NCBI GenBank assembly: GCA_020629635.1
Contig: JAHDCX010000014.1
Span: 62,001 to 126,000 of the forward strand
From: Acidimicrobiales bacterium
Lineage (GTDB): Bacteria > Actinomycetota > Acidimicrobiia > Acidimicrobiales > SHLQ01
DNA length: 64,000 nt
Direction of reading: 5' to 3'
Both the position numbers and the translations under genes were made by a program. Below the pieces are notes generated by a model. That model was given only the letters and a program-made list of their open reading frames with translations, did not search any database and was not told the origin of the DNA. Below, one piece after another: positions 1,775 through 11,202 of this stretch. Numbering within the stretch: the first letter of the stretch is position 1; each line of letters starts with the position of its first letter.

Positions 1775-1861
1775 ACAAGTCCGGAACACGGCCGTCGGTT
1801 GGCATGGAGGCGGTTGGGCTGGGGATTTCCTTTCGTACCTACCCAATCGAAAGGACCCCCA

Positions 1862-2065
1862 ATGAACACTCGACTGCTCCGCCTCCTGGCGACGTTCTTT
1901 GCCCTCGGACTCGTTGCTGCCGCGTGCGGCAGCGACACCGACGTGGACTCGACCGAGACGCCTGACGCTCCTGCGGTCGTCGAAGACGATGCCATGGAGG
2001 ATGAGGACGCCATGGAGGATGAGGACGCCATGGAGGATGAGGACGCCATGGAGGACGACGGCTGA
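1862..2065 (+). CDS. small acidic lipoprotein with AMEDED repeats
   Basis: A 67-residue protein. An N-terminal signal peptide (MNTRLLRLLATFF) ends in the lipobox VAAAC with Cys22, so the product should be a membrane-anchored lipoprotein after signal peptidase II cleavage. The mature part is almost wholly acidic and carries four copies of AMED(E/D)(D/G), encoded by an 18-bp tandem repeat (1991-2062). A Shine-Dalgarno-like GAAAGGA lies eight bases before the ATG. No known domain is recognised. A longer lipoprotein at 47898 has a comparable signal peptide and acidic, repetitive linker, but the two are not clearly homologous. Confidence 0.7.
   Translation: MNTRLLRLLATFFALGLVAAACGSDTDVDSTETPDAPAVVEDDAMEDEDAMEDEDAMEDEDAMEDDG
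1991..2062 (+). repeat. 18-bp tandem repeat, four copies
   Basis: Unit GCCATGGAGGATGAGGAC, with the last copy diverged to end in GACGGC. It is in frame and encodes Ala-Met-Glu-Asp-Glu-Asp. Near identity at the DNA level suggests recent slippage expansion. Confidence 0.85.
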
Positions 2066-2085
2066 CCCTGAAGCTCGTCACTGAC

Positions 2086-2091
2086 TAGCGT
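2086..2091 (+). promoter_or_regulatory. -10 element TAGCGT, leaderless
   Basis: Seven bases before the ATG at 2099, in a 33-bp intergenic gap without a Shine-Dalgarno sequence. Confidence 0.5.
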
Positions 2092-2098
2092 CGAGCCC

Positions 2099-2998
2099 AT
2101 GGCAGATGTTGAGGTCGTGGGCTCGATCGTCGCCCAACTCGGCGAGGGTCCCGTGTGGGACTCTCGCCACGGGGCGTTGTGGTGGGAAGACATCGAAGGG
2201 CGGGCGCTTCACCGCTTCGACCCCTCCACCGGCGTCACCGACTCACGAACCACCCGCGGCCGCCCCGGGAGCTTTGCCCTCACCGAAGACCCGGACGCCC
2301 TGCTCCTCGCGACCGAACAGGAGCTCGGCTGGTTCGGCTGGAGTAGCGGCGACTTCACGCCGTGGATCGAGCTCGAGTCCGGCACCGGCACACGAATGAA
2401 CGATGGCCGGCCTGACCACGCCGGCCGGTTCGTCGTCGGATCCATGTGGCCCGAACCCGACGACGAACGCTACGAGGGTTCGCTGCACCGGATCTCACCC
2501 GATGGATCGCAGGAGATCCTCGAGACCGACGTCGGTATCGCCAACGGGCTCGTGTTCGACCCGGAACGAGGCCGAATGTACTGGGCGGATACGTTCCACG
2601 CGACCGTGTGGGTCTGGGACTACGACCTCGCGACCGGAGCTCGCACCAACCGGCGGGTCTTCATCGACTACACCGCCGAGCGGGGCCTGCCCGACGGTGC
2701 GTGCCTCGACGCCGATGGCTGCTATTGGTCGGCGTCGGTCACCGGATGGGCGGTCACCCGCTTCACTCCGGATGGGAAGGTGGACCGGATCATCGACGTG
2801 CCGGTTCGCATGCCCACGATGCCCGCATTCGGTGGCAATGACCTGTCCACCCTCTACGTGACTTCGCTTGCGGGAGATCCGGCTCGAGCGGACTCGTTCG
2901 CCAAGGACGGCGTCGCGCCAGGTTCGTTGCTCGCCATCGACCTCTCGGGCACGAACATTCGCGGCGTCGAAGAACCCCGGGTCGCGCCACCCGACTGA
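2099..2998 (+). CDS. SMP-30/gluconolactonase/LRE family lactonase
   Basis: A 299-residue six-bladed beta-propeller of the senescence-marker-30/gluconolactonase family, which hydrolyses sugar lactones using one divalent metal. The four metal and active-site positions known from regucalcin can be placed: Glu16 (LGEGPVWD), Asn101 (RMNDG), Asn149 (IANGLVF) and Asp199 (GLPDGACLD). Length is typical and there is no signal peptide, so it should be cytoplasmic. The sugar is unknown; the neighbours do not form a sugar pathway. The start ATG has TAGCGT seven bases upstream. The stop lies three bases from the end of the convergent ppk2 gene. Confidence 0.88.
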   Translation: MADVEVVGSIVAQLGEGPVWDSRHGALWWEDIEGRALHRFDPSTGVTDSRTTRGRPGSFALTEDPDALLLATEQELGWFGWSSGDFTPWIELESGTGTRMNDGRPDHAGRFVVGSMWPEPDDERYEGSLHRISPDGSQEILETDVGIANGLVFDPERGRMYWADTFHATVWVWDYDLATGARTNRRVFIDYTAERGLPDGACLDADGCYWSASVTGWAVTRFTPDGKVDRIIDVPVRMPTMPAFGGNDLSTLYVTSLAGDPARADSFAKDGVAPGSLLAIDLSGTNIRGVEEPRVAPPD

Positions 2999-3001
2999 GG
3001 G

Positions 3002-3814
3002 CTATTCGACGACGACGCCGTCAAGCTCGGGGTTGGGCGGAAAGGGCTCACCGGCGAGTCCCTCGAGCGTGTCGACCAGGATCTGGCTGATCACGAGGTT
3101 GCGATACCACTTGCGGTCGGCGGGCACCACGAACCACGGCGCGTCGGGCGTCGACGTCTCTCGGAGCATCTCCTCGAACGCCGTCTGGTAGTCGTCCCAG
3201 CGCTTTCGCTCTTCGAGGTCCCCAAAGCTGAACTTCCAGTGCTTGGCCGGCTCGTCGATGCGCGCTTGGAGACGTTCGCGCTGCTCGTCCTTGGAGATGT
3301 GCAGATAGATCTTGACGATCGTCGTGCCCTCGTCGGCGAGCATCTGCTCGAAGTTGCGGATGTGGTCGTAGCGCTTTCGCCAACGATCTTCCGGGACGAT
3401 GTCGTGTACCCGTACGACCAGTACGTCCTCGTAGTGGCTGCGGTTGAAGACGGTGATGTGACCGGCGGCGGGTGTGTGCTGATGGATCCGCCAGAGATAG
3501 TCGTGGGACAGCTCCTCTTCCGTCGGCTTCTTGAACGAGGCCACGTGCACACCTTGAGGGTTGGTGCGATCGAACACGGCCCGGATCGTGCCATCCTTGC
3601 CGCCGGTATCGGTCGCCTGAAGCACGACGAGCAGCCGCTCCTTGCCGTGGGCGTACAGGTTCTCCTGGAGTTCCTCGAGCCGCCGGTTGAGCGCCTTGAA
3701 CATCGGCTTGGCCGTGTCCTTGTCGAGTCCGCCGTCGGCGTCGGTCGGGACGGAGGAGAGCCCGGCGAACGTCGCGGGGTCGACAGGGGAGAGTGGTTGA
3801 GGTGCGTCGGCCAT
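3002..3814 (-). CDS. ppk2: polyphosphate kinase 2 family nucleotide phosphotransferase
   Basis: A 270-residue PPK2-family kinase, which moves phosphate between polyphosphate and nucleotides. The P-loop is DTGGKDGT with Lys73. The second conserved motif, FNRSHYEDVLV, begins at residue 123, and Arg-rich lid sequences (DRWRKRYDHIRNFE) follow. The single-domain length is typical of the short PPK2 forms that phosphorylate ADP or AMP; the sequence alone does not settle whether it acts on AMP, ADP or GDP. The ATG at 3814 has TACGCT eight bases upstream, supporting leaderless expression. It is convergent with the SMP-30 gene. Confidence 0.9.
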   Translation of the reverse strand: MADAPQPLSPVDPATFAGLSSVPTDADGGLDKDTAKPMFKALNRRLEELQENLYAHGKERLLVVLQATDTGGKDGTIRAVFDRTNPQGVHVASFKKPTEEELSHDYLWRIHQHTPAAGHITVFNRSHYEDVLVVRVHDIVPEDRWRKRYDHIRNFEQMLADEGTTIVKIYLHISKDEQRERLQARIDEPAKHWKFSFGDLEERKRWDDYQTAFEEMLRETSTPDAPWFVVPADRKWYRNLVISQILVDTLEGLAGEPFPPNPELDGVVVE

Positions 3815-3822
3815 GTCGGCCG

Positions 3823-3828
3823 AGCGTA
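3823..3828 (-). promoter_or_regulatory. -10 element TACGCT, leaderless
   Basis: Minus-strand hexamer 8 nt before the ppk2 ATG. It lies between the ppk2 start and the end of the HD-GYP gene at 3829. Confidence 0.5.
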
Positions 3829-6800
3829 CTAGTGGATCCAGTTGTGGGTGCCGAGCGTATTGACCTGGTCGTCTCCGGTGGTCCGGTCATCGTGATCGTG
3901 GGTGTCGTCAGCCCCCGGACACGTTGCAGCTGCGGTGCCAGAGTTGCTGATCTCCCAGCACTCGCTGAGGTGGGGGAAGCCGTAGTGCGCGAGTGCAATT
4001 GACTCACCCATGTTGATGTCCAGACCCGTACCAAGCGGGATCTGTCCGTTCGGATCCCACAAGCTCCATGCGGTGATCGGCGGTTGGTCGCCGATCTCGG
4101 GCGCTTCCAGACATCCCACGCAGTCGATGTCTCCCCACGCCATGTACGCGACGAGTCGATCGCTGTCGTCGTAGAGGTAGAGGTCGTCGACGCCGATGAG
4201 CTTGTCCCATTGTTCGTTCAGCCAGATCTCCGGAACACCTGGCGAGGCCCCGCGATTCTCGGCGTGGTTGAATGGCTCTGCCGCGGGTCCGACCCAGATC
4301 ACGGCCTCTTCATCTGGATCGACGGGGAAGGCGCCCCCTGGCGCGATGAGTCCGGTGTTGATCATGTTTGGTTCGGTCTGGCCGAGCTCGGTGTCACGTA
4401 TCTTCCACCCGGAGACGTCGATTGCGGTCCCTGTCGTGTTGTAGAGCTCGATCGCCTCGTACTGAGTCCAGTTGACCTCGGTGATGATGATGTCGCCGAA
4501 GAACGGGCTGAGCGTAAAGCGAGAGTTCACGTCGATCGTGACCGTGGCGGTGGCAGCGGCGCCTTCGGCATCGGTGACGCGGACGGCCAACGTGAACTGT
4601 TGGCCATTCGGACCGAAGTCCACGTCGTCGGGGTCTTGCAACATGATCCGGTACGTTCCGGTGACGAGATCGAAGGTGTGCTGGAACGCACGGGTGCCGT
4701 CGCCGTCGACATCGGGATTGCTGGCGTCGGGCAGCTCGACGTTGACGACGTTGTCGTCGGGGTCGTCGAACGTGCCGATGAACAGCACGGCGGTGGTGTC
4801 GGTCGAGTCTTCGTCGACGCTCGCGGTACCGCCGAGAACCGTCGGCGGTTCGTTCACGTCGAGGATGTTGACCGTGATCAACTCTTCGGTGATACCGCCG
4901 GCTCCGTCGCTCACCCGGACGGTGTAGGTCTCGACTGGCTGGGTCTCGAAGTCGGGCGTCCGATTGTTGGGGATGGTGAGCATGCCGGCCGAGGTGGTTC
5001 CGAAGTTGGTGCCGTTGATCGGTGCCACGAAGGCGTAGGTGAGATTCGCCCCCTCGGGATCGAAGGCCACGATCTGTTCGACCGGTCCTGGGGCTTGTCC
5101 TTCCGGCACGGCGAAGACGGTGGTCGTCACGATCGGTGGATCGTTGACCGGCGTGATCGTGACGGCGATGGCGCCCGAGACGACGAAGGTGCCGTCGCTG
5201 ATCTCATAGGTGATCGTGTCGAACTGCGTCTCGCTGCCATTGTGCACGTAGCGAATGGTGTCGGTCCCCGCAATCGTCGTGCCCACGGAGTTCGCTCCCG
5301 GACCCGTGATCGAGGAAATGAACCAGGCACCATCCTCCGGATCGTCGACGAAGGGGCTGATGTCGATGAGCGCTGTCCCGCCTTCGGCGACCGTCGTGCT
5401 GCTCGCGGACACGGTCGGCGTTTCGTTGACGTCGCCGACGATGATCGTGTGGGTCGTGTCGGTGGAGTCGAGGCCATCGAACGCCCGGACGGTGACGTCG
5501 AGTGTCGGCGTCGTCTCGTGATCGAGCGGTCCGGTCACCCACAACTCGCCGCTGGCGGCGTCGATGCTGACTGAGCCCGGGCCGGTCACGCTCCACGAGA
5601 TCGGGTCCGGCCCGTCAGCATCGGAGGCGATCACGAACCGATTGCTCGGACCGTTCGCGGAGTTCTCCGGGATCGTGAAGGTCTGCGGTAGATGTGTTGG
5701 GGCGTCGTTCGTTTCGGTGATCGCAACGGCGATCGTGCCCGACCGGGTGAGGCCCGAGGCGTCCTGCACGACGTAGTCGACCGTGTCTGAGGTCGTGTTC
5801 GACCCGTCGTGTCGGTATTCGACGGTGGAGGCGTTGATTGCCATGGCGGTGCCGTTCGTGCCGTTCTGAACGGACACGATGGTGACCGACTCGCCTTCGG
5901 GGTCCGGATGGACGAGTGCGAGGTCGATGCTCGCCGTCCCGCCTTCGAGGAGCGACATCGACGCGTTGCCGGGCGATGGCGGCTCGTTGACATCGGTGAT
6001 GGTGATGGTCACCTCAACGGCGGTCTGACCGCCGTTGCCATCGATGATCAATACGTCGAGGACGCCGGTCGGTGTGGTCTCGAAATCGAGCGGTCCGGTG
6101 ACCTCGAGTTGTCCGCTCTCGGACACGCCAACGCCCGTGAGGGACGAGGCGACGACGGAGTGATTCAGGGTGTCGCCGTCCGGGTCGTTCGAGGAGATCC
6201 ACAATCCGGCAAGCCCGACGGCGCGATCTTCGGCGATGCTGAACGATTGCGTGGCGTTCGCGATTGGTGGGTCGTTCTGTGGGGTGACGCTGATCGTGAT
6301 CGTGCCCGATGCCGTGTTGCCGGCTGGGTCTTCGATCTCGTAGGCGATCGTGTCCGTGAAGTTCTCGGTGCCGTCGTGGGTGTATTCGATCTCGTCGGTT
6401 GCAGCGATGGTTGCCGCGCCGTGAGCCGGGTCGGTGGTGATGCGGGTGACTTGGAGCGCCTGACCCTCGGGGTCGACATGGAAGGCGGCGATGCCGAACG
6501 TCGTGGTTGATCCCTCGGCGACCGTCACGGGCGTCGTCGCATCACGTGGCGCTTCGTCGACGTCTTCGATCGTGACCGTGACGGTGCTTGTGACAGAGAT
6601 GACGCTGTCGGTCACCGTCACCGGGATGTTCGGGTAAGAAGCAACCGTCTCGTGATCGAGGGTGGTGGTGAGGATCAGTTGGCCATCCGAGGTCAGTTCG
6701 AATGGTGAGAGGCCCGACATCTCGAAGGCGAGCGGCTGTGGGCCATCGGGATCCGTTGCGACGATGCGATGGCCGGTGTCGCCGATGGCGGCGTCCTCTC

Positions 6801-9012
6801 GGACGACGAATGTCTGGGCGGCAATTGCCGCTGGGTCGTTGACCGGGGTGATCTCGACCGGGAGCAGGAGCGTGCGGGAATTGCCGGTCTCGTCGACGAC
6901 GGTGTACTCGACGACGTCCTCGGTCGTCTCGGACCCATCGTGGAGGTAGGTCCAGGTGTTCCCGTTGCGGGTCACGAGTCCATGCGCGGGTTGGGAGACG
7001 CTGCTCAAGGCGACGGTCGAGCCCTCGGGATCCCAATGTGTGGTTTCGACGTCGATCGTTGTCGAGGAGCCTTCTGTCACGACCGGCGTCGATGCTTCGC
7101 CGAGCGGTGGCTCATCAACGTTGGTCACGATGATCGAGACCTCGGCAACCGTCGAGTTGCCGGCCGGATCGCTGGCCGTCACCTCGACCAGCAGATTCGG
7201 CGCCTGCTCGTAGTCGAGAAGCGTGGCGGTGGTGATCGCCCCACTGGTGGGATCGACCTCGACGGCGCCGGCGTCCGGCCCGCCGACGATCTCCCACGTG
7301 ATCTGTTCGCCTTCAGGATCGTCTGCGGTCAGCACTCGGACGACCGTCCCCGCTGGCGAGTCTTCGGAGATGAGGGTTGACGTTGCCTCGAAGACGGGCG
7401 TCTCGTCGACGTCGAGAACCTCGATCGTGTGATCGATCGTCGTGGAGGTCTCACCGTCGCCGACCGTCACCCGGACGATGTACGTCTGGGCTTGTTCGTA
7501 GTCGACGATGGAGTCGTCGACGACGCTGAGCACGCCGGTTCGAGCATCGATGACGAACGGATGGTCGCCGGGAGCAACGCTCCAGGTGAGGGGCAGGCCT
7601 TCGGGGTCGGACGCGACGAGGCCGGGTAGAGGCGATCCGACGAGCGCATCCTCACTCAGCACGAGTGTCTGGATCGCCATCACTGGCGCTCCGTTCTGTG
7701 GCGGCGGCAGGGTTGTGGTCGTCGTCGGCGCAACCGTCGTCGTGGTGGTCGTGGTGGTTGTGGTCGAGGTGGTTGTGGTCGTCGAAGTGGTTGTCGTCGG
7801 CGCAGTCGTCGTGGACGTGGGGGCGGTCGACGTCGTCGTCGGGGCGGCGGTCGTCGTGGTGGCCTCGAAGGCGATCGCGGCGGGTGGTTCAGCCGGAAGG
7901 GGAGCCGACCCGACGATTGCGGCGCTGACCGCCGTCGCCGTGCTGACTGCGGCGGTCGCCACCGGTTGGGTGATCTGGCCAATCGGGAGCTGCCGGACGG
8001 CAGGAACACTGGCGAGCCACGCGACCGGACCGCCGACCCGGCGGAGATCACCGATCCCGACGGACAGGAACGCCCGGACGATCTGCGGATCGAATTGGGT
8101 GCCGGCGTTGTCCGCGACCTCTCGGCGGGCGACCTCGGCGGGTAGCGGCTTCTTGTAGGAGCGGGTCGAGGTCATGACGTCGAATGCGTCGGCGACGGCG
8201 ACGATCCGCGCAGCCAGGGGGATGTCGATGCCGGCAAGGCCTCTCGGATAGCCGTTTCCGTCCCATCGCTCGTGGTGGCCGCTCGCGGCGTGGCGCCACT
8301 CACCGAGCCAATCAGCGACAGGTTCGAGGTGGCGTTCGGCCGCGGCGGGGTGACGTTGGAGGATGGCCCACTCTTCATCGGAGGGGCGGTCGGGCTTGTT
8401 CAGGATCTCACTCGGGACCTCGAGCTTTCCCATGTCATGGAGCAGCGCTGCCCACCGGAGCTTCCCGAGATCCTCACCGTCGATTCCCATCTGTTCGGCG
8501 ATGAGCTCGGAATACGCGCGAACACGTTCGGAGTGCCCCCGCGTCATCCGATCGTGGGTGGACAACATCGTGATCAGACTGAGCATCTGGTCCGCGACGA
8601 CGTCGTCTCGCGACAAGGCCAAACCACCTTGTTGGATCTCCTGGATTCGCTTCTTCGTCTTCGCGACTGATCCGGCACGAAGGGTCGAAGAGAAGCGGCT
8701 GGGCGTCTCGTCCGGAAAGATCAACGACAACTGAAACAACGCGGTCAACGGTGTCAACCGCTGCAGGCCCATGTCGAGGAGTCGTACGAGGATGGTGGCG
8801 CCCACGACGAGCGCGATCCACCAGGTCCAGACGCTGACGCCGAGCCGGTCGTGCGGGAAGCTCCGCGACATCCACATGCCGAACAGAATCGAAACGAGGA
8901 TCGGCAGGAGGAACAACCCGATGCGGATCGCACGAGACAGCGACGGCCGCCCCTCCCACGCCGCGCCCTCGTGCGCGGCGTAGTTCATTTGTGTTGGGCC
9001 GCGCGACGCCAT
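3829..9012 (-). CDS. HD-GYP membrane protein with cadherin/Ig repeats and lamin-tail domain
   Basis: A giant 1727-residue protein. Domain order is two membrane helices (about 31-47 and 61-79), an HD-GYP phosphodiesterase domain, a weak third membrane segment (about 349-373), a Thr-rich linker (384-437), about eleven beta-sandwich domains and a C-terminal lamin-tail-like domain. The HD-GYP motifs are intact: HDMGK at 192, the HP pair at 220-221, and HHERW followed by GYP ending near 256. Intact HD-GYP domains usually hydrolyse cyclic di-GMP. Six or seven cadherin-like repeats ending in DVDE or DVNE (calcium-linker type) alternate with four Ig-like repeats ending in PVND-type motifs. The three-helix topology would put the HD-GYP domain in the cytoplasm and the repeats outside. 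I chose ATG 9012 over an upstream TTG because the paralogue at 9088-11202 opens with the same GPTQM(N/D)YA motif. The function is inferred. Confidence 0.88.
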   Translation of the reverse strand: MASRGPTQMNYAAHEGAAWEGRPSLSRAIRIGLFLLPILVSILFGMWMSRSFPHDRLGVSVWTWWIALVVGATILVRLLDMGLQRLTPLTALFQLSLIFPDETPSRFSSTLRAGSVAKTKKRIQEIQQGGLALSRDDVVADQMLSLITMLSTHDRMTRGHSERVRAYSELIAEQMGIDGEDLGKLRWAALLHDMGKLEVPSEILNKPDRPSDEEWAILQRHPAAAERHLEPVADWLGEWRHAASGHHERWDGNGYPRGLAGIDIPLAARIVAVADAFDVMTSTRSYKKPLPAEVARREVADNAGTQFDPQIVRAFLSVGIGDLRRVGGPVAWLASVPAVRQLPIGQITQPVATAAVSTATAVSAAIVGSAPLPAEPPAAIAFEATTTTAAPTTTSTAPTSTTTAPTTTTSTTTTTSTTTTTTTTTTVAPTTTTTLPPPQNGAPVMAIQTLVLSEDALVGSPLPGLVASDPEGLPLTWSVAPGDHPFVIDARTGVLSVVDDSIVDYEQAQTYIVRVTVGDGETSTTIDHTIEVLDVDETPVFEATSTLISEDSPAGTVVRVLTADDPEGEQITWEIVGGPDAGAVEVDPTSGAITTATLLDYEQAPNLLVEVTASDPAGNSTVAEVSIIVTNVDEPPLGEASTPVVTEGSSTTIDVETTHWDPEGSTVALSSVSQPAHGLVTRNGNTWTYLHDGSETTEDVVEYTVVDETGNSRTLLLPVEITPVNDPAAIAAQTFVVREDAAIGDTGHRIVATDPDGPQPLAFEMSGLSPFELTSDGQLILTTTLDHETVASYPNIPVTVTDSVISVTSTVTVTIEDVDEAPRDATTPVTVAEGSTTTFGIAAFHVDPEGQALQVTRITTDPAHGAATIAATDEIEYTHDGTENFTDTIAYEIEDPAGNTASGTITISVTPQNDPPIANATQSFSIAEDRAVGLAGLWISSNDPDGDTLNHSVVASSLTGVGVSESGQLEVTGPLDFETTPTGVLDVLIIDGNGGQTAVEVTITITDVNEPPSPGNASMSLLEGGTASIDLALVHPDPEGESVTIVSVQNGTNGTAMAINASTVEYRHDGSNTTSDTVDYVVQDASGLTRSGTIAVAITETNDAPTHLPQTFTIPENSANGPSNRFVIASDADGPDPISWSVTGPGSVSIDAASGELWVTGPLDHETTPTLDVTVRAFDGLDSTDTTHTIIVGDVNETPTVSASSTTVAEGGTALIDISPFVDDPEDGAWFISSITGPGANSVGTTIAGTDTIRYVHNGSETQFDTITYEISDGTFVVSGAIAVTITPVNDPPIVTTTVFAVPEGQAPGPVEQIVAFDPEGANLTYAFVAPINGTNFGTTSAGMLTIPNNRTPDFETQPVETYTVRVSDGAGGITEELITVNILDVNEPPTVLGGTASVDEDSTDTTAVLFIGTFDDPDDNVVNVELPDASNPDVDGDGTRAFQHTFDLVTGTYRIMLQDPDDVDFGPNGQQFTLAVRVTDAEGAAATATVTIDVNSRFTLSPFFGDIIITEVNWTQYEAIELYNTTGTAIDVSGWKIRDTELGQTEPNMINTGLIAPGGAFPVDPDEEAVIWVGPAAEPFNHAENRGASPGVPEIWLNEQWDKLIGVDDLYLYDDSDRLVAYMAWGDIDCVGCLEAPEIGDQPPITAWSLWDPNGQIPLGTGLDINMGESIALAHYGFPHLSECWEISNSGTAAATCPGADDTHDHDDRTTGDDQVNTLGTHNWIH
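7700..7860 (-). repeat. Thr-codon-rich low-complexity tract
   Basis: ACC/ACG/ACA Thr codons run for some 50 residues inside the HD-GYP-cadherin gene, forming a likely extended, possibly glycosylated linker. It reads as a GTGGTCGTC-like microsatellite on the plus strand and is prone to slippage. Confidence 0.8.
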
Positions 9013-9087
9013 GGCCACAGGTTCGGCGGATTCGCCCCGACGATTGATCAAATACGGCCGTTCGCCCAGAGTGATGGGCCGAGCGAC

Positions 9088-11202
9088 CTACCAGTTCGGT
9101 TTGCCGGCAGACGACACGTTCGGAATGCCGAAGTCGTCGCCGTCATTGTCGTTGCTGAGTCGCCATCCGGCGCATCGTCCCGCCGCGTCTCCCGACGTCG
9201 TCCATTCCCAGCAGGCGCTCTGGCGAGCGCCGTCCGTGGTCTCGTTGGTGAGCGAAATCGATTGTCCCGCAAGCGTTGGCGATACACCGAATGAGGTCTG
9301 GACGGAGGCGTCCCACAGGTTCCACTCGGCCGACGGTGCCGTACCGATCTCTGATCCAGGGCTGTTCGGATCGCCCCATGCCATGTAGGCGACGACGTGG
9401 CCTTTGTCGTCGAGGAGCCAGAGATCATCGCTCGATGCCAACCCGGGACTGGCGAGGGCGGCTTCATGGTCGATGGCGCCGTGCTCGCCCCGGTCCCTGA
9501 GTGTCGTCCAGAGCAGCAGTCGTTGGCCCTGCGGGAGCGAGCCCACCGGGAGCGGGGCGACGATCGAACTGGCGTCCGGGGTCTCTTGCCCGATCCAGTA
9601 GTCAGAGAGAGTCCATCCGGTGAAGTCGACCGCGCCGTCAGCGACGACGATCATCTCGACGAATTCGGTGTCAGAGGCCCAATCGATCTCGGTGAAAATC
9701 ATCGTCCCGAAGTGCGGGCTCAGGGCGATCGCCGGAGGCAGCGGAGGCGGGTCGGCGATGTCGAAAGGGGGTGGATCGTCCAGCGTCGGCGGCTCTTCGA
9801 CCGGGTCCGGCGTTGGTTCGGGCGGCGCCGGTGGCTCGGGCTCGGGAGCGTCGTCGGCCGGTTCGAGGTCGGCGACCGTTGTCGTCGATGTCGTGTTGGC
9901 TGTTGTGGGCACGGCGACGATGGTCGTGGGGGCAGCAGTCGGCGCATCCGCGTCGTCAACCACCGGCACGGCCGTGGTGGCCACGAGAGTCGTCGTGGTG
10001 GTCGATGAGGCGTCGACCGGCGCCTCATCATCGACGAATGCGACGGCGTCGGGCTCGTCGCCCTGCCAGGGCATCTCGGCTGGGGCAAGCGTGGCAGCGC
10101 CGACCACGATCGCCGCACTCGCCGCCACGTTTGCGATGGGCTGTGCCGCAGCGACGAGCGGCTGCGCACTCGGGACGCCGATCTGGTGGACGCCCGGAAT
10201 GGCCGTAAACCACCCGATCGGGCCGGCGACACGGCGGATGTCGCCGATCGCGACCTGCATGAACGCTCGCACGACTGCGGGGTCGAACTGCTTGCCGGCG
10301 TTGTCGGCGATCTCGCGGCGGGCGATCTCGGGCGACAGGGCCGATTTGTACGAGCGTGACGAGGTCATGACGTCGAACGCATCCGCAACGGCAACAATCC
10401 GACCCGCGAGAGGAATCTCGTCGCCGCTCAGACCCTGTGGATAGCCAGATCCGTCCCACTTCTCGTGATGTGCGTCGGCAGCATGGCGCCAAGGGCCGAG
10501 CCACTCGGCAAGTGGGGCGAGGTGTCGCCGCGCGGTCGCCGGATGGCGCTGAAGGGTCAACCATTCCTTTCGGGAGGGCTTTCCCGGCTTGTTGAGAATC
10601 TCCTCGGGGACCTCCAACTTGCCGATGTCGTGCAGCAGCGCCCCCCAGCGCAGACGTTCGAGCGACGCCTCGCCAAGGCCGAGCTGTTCGCCGATCAACT
10701 CCGAATAGCCACGCACCCGTTCGGAGTGACCGCGGGTGCGCCGGTCGTGGGTCGAGAGAAGCGTGACCATTTCGATCATCTGTGCCGAAATCTTGTCGAA
10801 TCGATCGAGCGCCATGCCGCCGTTCTGGATCTCTTCGATCCGCTTCCGGGTCTTGGCAATCGACCCCGCCCGCAACGCCACGGAAAATCGACTGGGCGTC
10901 TTGTCCGGGAAAACCAGCGTCAGCTGCAGGAGCGCAGCGATTGGGATCAGGCGTCGTGCAACGAATTCTGCGGCCCGCACGAGGAGGACGGCAGCGCCGA
11001 CGAGGCCGGCCAACCACAGCCATCGGTTGATCCCGACCCGATCGGGCGGGTACCGGGTCGATGCCCACCATCCGAAGAGCAACGACATGAACACCGGCAG
11101 CAGGACTGCCACGATCCGCAAGGTTCGAGCGAAGACGCGTTGGCCTCGCCAGTGCGTCTCCGACGCGCCGGCGTAATCCATCTGAGTTGGACCCAACGCC
11201 AT
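9088..11202 (-). CDS. HD-GYP membrane protein with lamin-tail domain
   Basis: A 704-residue paralogue of the 1727-residue neighbour. Shared parts, in order, are the N-terminal GPTQMDYA motif, membrane helices at about 31-46 and 62-77, an HD-GYP domain with HDIGK at 191-195, RHP at 219-221 and HHEKWDGSGYP at 245-255, a weak third hydrophobic stretch (347-372), a Thr/Pro/Asp-rich linker (400-490), and a lamin-tail-like domain (about 492-680) containing IFTEIDW and VVAYMAWGD. The cadherin block of the neighbour is absent. The catalytic HD-GYP residues suggest cyclic-di-GMP hydrolysis in the cytoplasm; the C-terminal domain should face outside. The ATG at 11202 has no TANNNT box close by. The two genes are 75 bp apart on the same strand and look like a tandem duplication. 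Confidence 0.88.
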   Translation of the reverse strand: MALGPTQMDYAGASETHWRGQRVFARTLRIVAVLLPVFMSLLFGWWASTRYPPDRVGINRWLWLAGLVGAAVLLVRAAEFVARRLIPIAALLQLTLVFPDKTPSRFSVALRAGSIAKTRKRIEEIQNGGMALDRFDKISAQMIEMVTLLSTHDRRTRGHSERVRGYSELIGEQLGLGEASLERLRWGALLHDIGKLEVPEEILNKPGKPSRKEWLTLQRHPATARRHLAPLAEWLGPWRHAADAHHEKWDGSGYPQGLSGDEIPLAGRIVAVADAFDVMTSSRSYKSALSPEIARREIADNAGKQFDPAVVRAFMQVAIGDIRRVAGPIGWFTAIPGVHQIGVPSAQPLVAAAQPIANVAASAAIVVGAATLAPAEMPWQGDEPDAVAFVDDEAPVDASSTTTTTLVATTAVPVVDDADAPTAAPTTIVAVPTTANTTSTTTVADLEPADDAPEPEPPAPPEPTPDPVEEPPTLDDPPPFDIADPPPLPPAIALSPHFGTMIFTEIDWASDTEFVEMIVVADGAVDFTGWTLSDYWIGQETPDASSIVAPLPVGSLPQGQRLLLWTTLRDRGEHGAIDHEAALASPGLASSDDLWLLDDKGHVVAYMAWGDPNSPGSEIGTAPSAEWNLWDASVQTSFGVSPTLAGQSISLTNETTDGARQSACWEWTTSGDAAGRCAGWRLSNDNDGDDFGIPNVSSAGKPNW

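Follow-up and report, generated by a model that had tools for sequence, protein, structure and literature searches.

The window, the whole 64,000-nucleotide stretch of contig JAHDCX010000014.1 that was analysed, comes from a draft genome (4.45 Mb in 37 contigs, completeness 96.5%) whose closest relatives found are metagenome-assembled genomes of Acidimicrobiales. A sequence-only reading of this DNA had placed a single 1727-residue chain at positions 3829-9012, and both coordinates and length proved right: the gene lies on the minus strand (9012..3829) as a single open frame of 1727 aa, and the plus strand across the same interval has many stops. The minus-strand frame is open through 3829 from either a TTG at 9051 (1740 aa) or an ATG at 9012, with no stop and no frame break. 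The ATG is favored as start because the neighboring paralogue (11202..9088) opens with a matching MA-x-GPTQM. The encoded protein combines an HD-GYP enzyme, membrane segments, a Thr-rich stalk, an array of cadherin- and Ig-type repeats and a lamin-tail domain, all described below in minus-strand coordinates.

A PPK2-type polyphosphate kinase gene (3002..3814, minus strand) starts 15 nt past the end of the HD-GYP gene. It was considered as a functional partner and rejected: gene order differs in relatives with the same protein layout, where a methyltransferase (two relatives) or a sulfate permease (a third) lies downstream, and the adjacency is probably incidental. The genome itself is a heavy user of c-di-GMP, with 28 GGDEF, 20 EAL and 12 HD-GYP proteins.

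Domains of the encoded protein

The HD-GYP domain (Pfam HD_5) spans residues 146-311 (8080..8577) and is predicted to be cytoplasmic (E 3.6e-37, 128 bits against a cut-off of 27.2). It has the same fold as PmGH (4mcw) and PA4781 (4r8z). For PmGH the metal ligands have been established by structure and mutation (PMC4159591), and seven of the eight are kept in the window protein (H189, H221, D222, H250, H276, H277 and D305 in PmGH numbering), together with the equivalents of D183, K225 and the GYP triplet. Among 44 family sequences (see below), the seven ligands, K225 and GYP are unchanged in all scored members; H189 is kept in 43, the remaining one having an alignment gap that spans D183, E185 and H189, and the D183 position holds E in four members and D otherwise. 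The intact phosphodiesterase domain described in the sequence-only reading is therefore borne out as a site kept across the family, with seven of eight reference ligands. The eighth, E185, is replaced in every member (M in the window protein; R, L, M, K, V, A or I elsewhere), which places the family outside the trinuclear (E/D-T-G) HD-GYP subgroup.

HD-GYP domains split quasi-equally into subgroups with and without E185, a binuclear site being predicted for the latter, and the E185A mutant of PmGH is weaker, still active (PMC4159591). A binuclear site lacking E185 may thus be expected family-wide, and the loss of this residue possibly alters substrate preference. Judged from its residues the enzyme should be active, with c-di-GMP as the probable substrate. 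An attempt to choose between c-di-GMP and 3'3'-cGAMP from sequence was abandoned, since V-cGAP3 is the enzyme's top match in the PDB by sequence, and the core model is matched best in Foldseek by the bi-metallic HD-GYP protein PA4781 (4r8z). The active-site motif reads HHC instead of HHE at the loci L026, L027 and L028.

Two N-terminal membrane helices are clear, at residues 31-48 (8869..8922), where hydropathy is accompanied by conservation of the helix across the family, and at residues 62-79 (8776..8829). The second is followed by a motif, LxPLxxLxxLSLxFPDxxPSRF, that is strongly conserved in the family between this helix and the HD-GYP domain. A third helix (TM3) is predicted after the enzyme at residues ~349-371 (7900..7968); it is weak and rich in Ala, Val and Thr, with a hydropathy of 1.5 (1.4-2.1 in other family members having the full core), and the predicted structure model has a helix there at low confidence. 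Hydropathy and uncharged-run statistics were tried as proof of TM3 and set aside: in the window protein hydropathy alone does no better than a shuffled composition, and only 17 of 42 members differed from shuffles at p<0.05. Of the membrane helices proposed from the sequence, the two N-terminal ones are thus clear and the third is weak. The Thr-rich stalk was found as proposed, over 57 residues (379-435; 7708..7878), Thr content reaching 52% over residues 379-447. O-mannosylation of this stalk by a Pmt enzyme was considered and dropped: the genome has no match to PF02366, in a search whose controls gave matches.

The stalk leads into eleven tandem domains (residues 436-1495; 4528..7707). Cutting at the conserved linkers DVxExP and TPxNDP set the repeat borders and gave ten clear units of 91-104 aa, six cadherin-type and four Ig-type, and a divergent eleventh of 105 aa (R11), in the order cadherin, cadherin, Ig, cadherin, Ig, cadherin, Ig, cadherin, Ig, cadherin, R11. 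The count of about eleven domains given by the sequence-only reading holds in this form; strict alternation does not, because repeats 1 and 2 are both cadherin-type. Every domain type it named was matched in Pfam: besides HD_5 and the lamin-tail domain, Big_9 was found in 11 stretches, Cadherin_4 in 10 and Cadherin (PF00028) in 5 (125 bits against a cut-off of 28.8), with overlap between the Big_9 and Cadherin stretches. The four calcium-ligand positions (E, DxxG, DxE and DxxExP) are all present in 6/6 cadherin-type repeats, which would be expected to bind calcium. Identity among units of the same class is 28-43%, so the array is old and not a recent tandem expansion. The repeat region also matches the NCBIfam tandem-95 repeat (NF012211; 137.7 bits against a cut-off of 90). 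The likeness to tandem-95 proteins goes no further than the annotation of the repeats: the plasmid genes that match best, named tandem-95 repeat protein, cover in their alignment the repeats and the sequence after them, not the HD-GYP domain.

A lamin-tail domain (LTD, PF00932) occupies residues 1506-1627 (4132..4497). The lamin-tail-like end noted from the sequence is confirmed both by Pfam (41.2 bits against a cut-off of 34.3) and by fold, as the top 15 PDB matches of a Foldseek search with a modest-confidence model are all lamin Ig domains (best E 5e-5). The only four Cys residues of the ectodomain (1631, 1634, 1685 and 1698) sit just past the LTD match. Bacterial lamin-tail domains have been predicted to bind extracellular DNA or surface polysaccharide (PMC11488536), and in the nuclease ExeM the domain is largely dispensable (PMC6085458).

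A common core with differing ectodomains

The query in the search for relatives was an alignment (A1) restricted to the N-terminal part that is specific to the family. It gave matches in 34 of 296 class genomes, in 21 of 396 phylum genomes and in 7 of 301 genomes of the phylum sampled around a Chloroflexota locus; among 199 genomes sampled around a Bacillota locus, a set without positive control, there was none. The window genome holds 11 copies, compared with 1-3 in other matching genomes of the class; its 12th HD-GYP protein (L025) has a different N-terminus. With a few cut or broken frames excluded, family members range from ~400 to 2625 aa. They share a core of two helices, HD-GYP domain and third helix, to which are joined ectodomains that are cadherin/Ig, lamin-tail, CBM6/35, PKD or Cys-rich.

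Four homologues of 2171-2263 aa from four other Acidimicrobiales genomes (L031, L032, L033 and L040) have the same layout as the window protein, with cadherin/Ig repeats and lamin-tail domains, and at least 13 further members from several families carry a cadherin/Ig ectodomain on the same core. That an assembly or sequencing error had fused two genes, a concern raised by the 37-contig draft and by the low complexity of the Thr-rich tract, is refuted by these relatives: the same order of parts recurs in at least four independently assembled genomes and in many more cadherin/Ig members, and the frame is unbroken, so we give this explanation practically no weight. The combination of an HD-GYP domain with an adhesin-like array had been singled out as an unusual layout; the fusion is real and recurrent, but it is not isolated, and the array is one ectodomain type among several. 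In the ectodomains scanned, cadherin/Ig domains occur in about twenty members, and several members have no Pfam match. LTD lies above or near the cut-off in nine members, including P0002, L155 and L145; the last (G273:C66:37000-46000; 2625 aa, from another family of the same order) has eight LTD copies along with cadherin/Ig repeats. Two paralogues in the window genome carry CBM6/CBM35 carbohydrate-binding ectodomains (L026:3321-5720 and L027:3530-5707), and one member (L169) carries PKD.

Several members deserve separate mention. In L167 and L168, from the phylum sample around the Chloroflexota locus, the ectodomain is a Cys-rich repeat of the CxxCTNxxPGCTxxC type, read by eye and with no Pfam match. 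A 445-aa paralogue in the window genome (L030:4361-5695) has no readable ectodomain and no third helix; around the first metal-binding His its frame is missing a segment, and after SKRS it runs into Pro/Arg-rich nonsense, so that it looks like a decayed copy, probably a pseudogene or a frameshift. The core of L036 (JADFOM010000238.1), in a record titled Acidobacteria, nests among Acidimicrobiia-type cores, and a phylum sample centered on it had its matches where the window's own sample also had them; the record is apparently mislabelled.

The paralogue next to the window gene (9088..11202, minus strand; 704 aa) consists of the TM-TM-HD-GYP-TM core, a Thr/Pro linker and a lamin-tail end, with no repeats; its LTD score is 27-31 bits, below the cut-off of 34.3. 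In a tree of 44 cores the two genes are sisters (support 99/94), and the pair lies inside a clade (100/98) of which all other members are cadherin+LTD proteins of 2171-2263 aa. Since the repeat-less paralogue nests within this clade, the simplest history is one in which it lost the repeats and retained the tip. The converse, a lamin-tail form as ancestor with later insertion of repeats, was rejected on the same ground, loss being simpler. Because the sister dropped all repeats and kept the lamin-tail end, the tip seems to be the working part, with the repeats serving as a spacer; an adhesin is one option for the protein.

Contig C24 of the window genome carries, near one end, two adjacent HD-GYP paralogues (L024, G000:C24:24000-30013; genes 3928-5946 and 1852-3927, minus strand) whose DNA is identical over 988 bp from TM1 to TM3, with N-tails and ectodomains that have diverged strongly. 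Unless the pair reflects misassembly so close to a contig end, it is the kind of trace expected from gene conversion, or from an exchange of ectodomains on a constant core.

Topology and proposed mode of action

Averaged over 38 members, net charge is +2.2 before TM1, +0.7 in the loop between TM1 and TM2 and +2.6 after TM2, then turns from +2.3 before TM3 to -4.6 after it. The ectodomain of the window protein has 204 acidic and 27 basic residues, compared with 34 and 31 in the cytoplasmic part. This charge pattern, together with the three hydrophobic segments, argues for an N-terminus and HD-GYP domain inside and an ectodomain outside, and hence for repeats and enzyme on opposite sides of the membrane. 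An outside location also fits the Cys-rich ectodomains of the Chloroflexota members and the CBM6/35 ectodomains of the paralogues. Where the function of an HD-GYP enzyme is known, it works in the cytoplasm. This, the positive-inside flanks of the two clear N-terminal helices and a sharp charge reversal that comes only past TM3 make it very improbable that the whole protein lies outside, with extracellular nucleotides or surface phosphodiesters as its substrates, in the manner of ShfP-type surface phosphoesterases, even if the joining of LTD, Ig and cadherin domains to extracellular phosphoesterases is a known theme (PMC11488536).

An enzyme that stays constant while its outside parts are exchanged is what characterizes a receptor family. 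We lean, with some reserve, toward a receptor-type membrane phosphodiesterase, probably for c-di-GMP, that would read the matrix, the wall or neighboring cells in an outside-in direction. With two helices before the enzyme and a third after it, the HD-GYP domain would be cytoplasmic and the C-terminal ectodomain would face the exterior. The Thr-rich stalk would span the cell wall, and the eleven beta domains, stiffened by calcium, would form a rod presenting the lamin-tail domain, its tip kept off the wall. Tip or rod may bind matrix polysaccharide, extracellular DNA, the wall or a neighboring cell; binding or tension would then change the geometry of TM3 and of the HD-GYP domain, which is probably dimeric, and so alter the local rate of c-di-GMP breakdown. 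Several differently tipped receptors per cell could in this way feed one messenger.

Coupling through TM3 is a guess, given that the ectodomain is C-terminal to the enzyme, unlike the usual sensor-first order. The weakness of this Ala/Thr-rich helix and the paralogue L030 with neither readable ectodomain nor third helix both speak against a receptor. They would suit instead a tethered phosphodiesterase whose ectodomain does no more than hold the enzyme where contact is made or fasten it to the wall, with no signal crossing the membrane. TM3 is of no obvious signal-transducing type, and the ectodomain varies widely on an unchanged core; the conserved membrane-proximal motif between TM2 and the HD-GYP domain, however, suggests more than an anchor, and we hold such an uncoupled fusion to be improbable.

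Signaling might also run in the opposite direction, the HD-GYP domain binding, and perhaps hydrolyzing, c-di-GMP so as to control the conformation or display of an adhesin. Cadherin/Ig arrays are frequent in adhesins, and DvhD, an HD-GYP c-di-GMP receptor, governs adhesin retention by an inside-out change (PMC13090378). In DvhD, however, both the HD motif and the double His have been lost, and a protease mediates its action in trans, whereas all catalytic residues except E185 are kept family-wide here. Short CBM, LTD-only and Cys-rich ectodomains are no adhesin arrays, and there is no C-terminal anchor or sortase motif for a switch to act on: a check of 38 members, of which two or three are truncated at contig ends, found neither a C-terminal TM nor LPxTG. 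An inside-out adhesin is accordingly an unlikely reading, if a less improbable one than the uncoupled fusion.

Relation to known systems

The separate elements are already known: HD-GYP domains, cadherin repeats and lamin-tail domains, one-component membrane c-di-GMP enzymes, and fusions of LTD or Ig domains to phosphoesterases with the enzyme outside. In PmGH and PA4781 a sensor or receiver domain is N-terminal to the enzyme, whereas here the enzyme lies between membrane helices and the ectodomain is C-terminal. PASTA Ser/Thr kinases such as PknB and PrkC, with a cytoplasmic enzyme, a TM helix and a C-terminal wall-sensing repeat ectodomain, are the closest parallel in layout; they differ in that their enzyme is unrelated (protein phosphorylation as opposed to cyclic dinucleotide hydrolysis), and the present family has two extra N-terminal helices and much longer, exchangeable ectodomains. 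DvhD and LapD, the nearest parallel for adhesin control in trans, are likewise membrane proteins with a cytoplasmic c-di-GMP domain tied to a large adhesin system (PMC13090378). The HD-GYP domain of DvhD has degenerated to a non-catalytic form that regulates a protease in trans, for a separate adhesin system; the enzyme here looks active and shares a chain with its ectodomain. The degenerate c-di-GMP domain that marks LapD/DvhD-type receptors is thus absent, the catalytic residues of the window protein being intact. ShfP-type calcineurin-like phosphoesterases resemble the window protein in joining LTD and Ig domains (cadherin in relatives) to a phosphoesterase (PMC11488536), but theirs is extracellular and of another fold, and the HD-GYP domain is predicted to be inside.

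Our search of the open literature found no description of a family joining HD-GYP to cadherin, lamin-tail, Ig-like or carbohydrate-binding domains, nor of a family in which an inside HD-GYP enzyme is followed by C-terminal ectodomains that are swapped between members. The main text of a 2022 census of c-di-GMP sensory domains makes no mention of cadherin, lamin, immunoglobulin or PASTA (PMC8846402). The same layouts may be present in domain databases as unremarked architectures. We put forward, tentatively and as a proposal we rather doubt, that these proteins form an undescribed family of receptor phosphodiesterases that turn contact with matrix or neighbors straight into c-di-GMP breakdown, a functional counterpart of the animal receptor phosphatases with Ig ectodomains, present here in 11 copies whose core stays fixed while the ectodomains diverge.

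The change from free to attached life and back is under the control of c-di-GMP. To our knowledge, most c-di-GMP enzymes have no identified input, and examples in which outside contact is tied directly to turnover are few. With contact device and enzyme on one chain, the relation between outside binding and c-di-GMP hydrolysis is testable with a single protein; the repeat-less sister is a natural deletion control, and the paralogues offer tips that are recognizably carbohydrate-binding.
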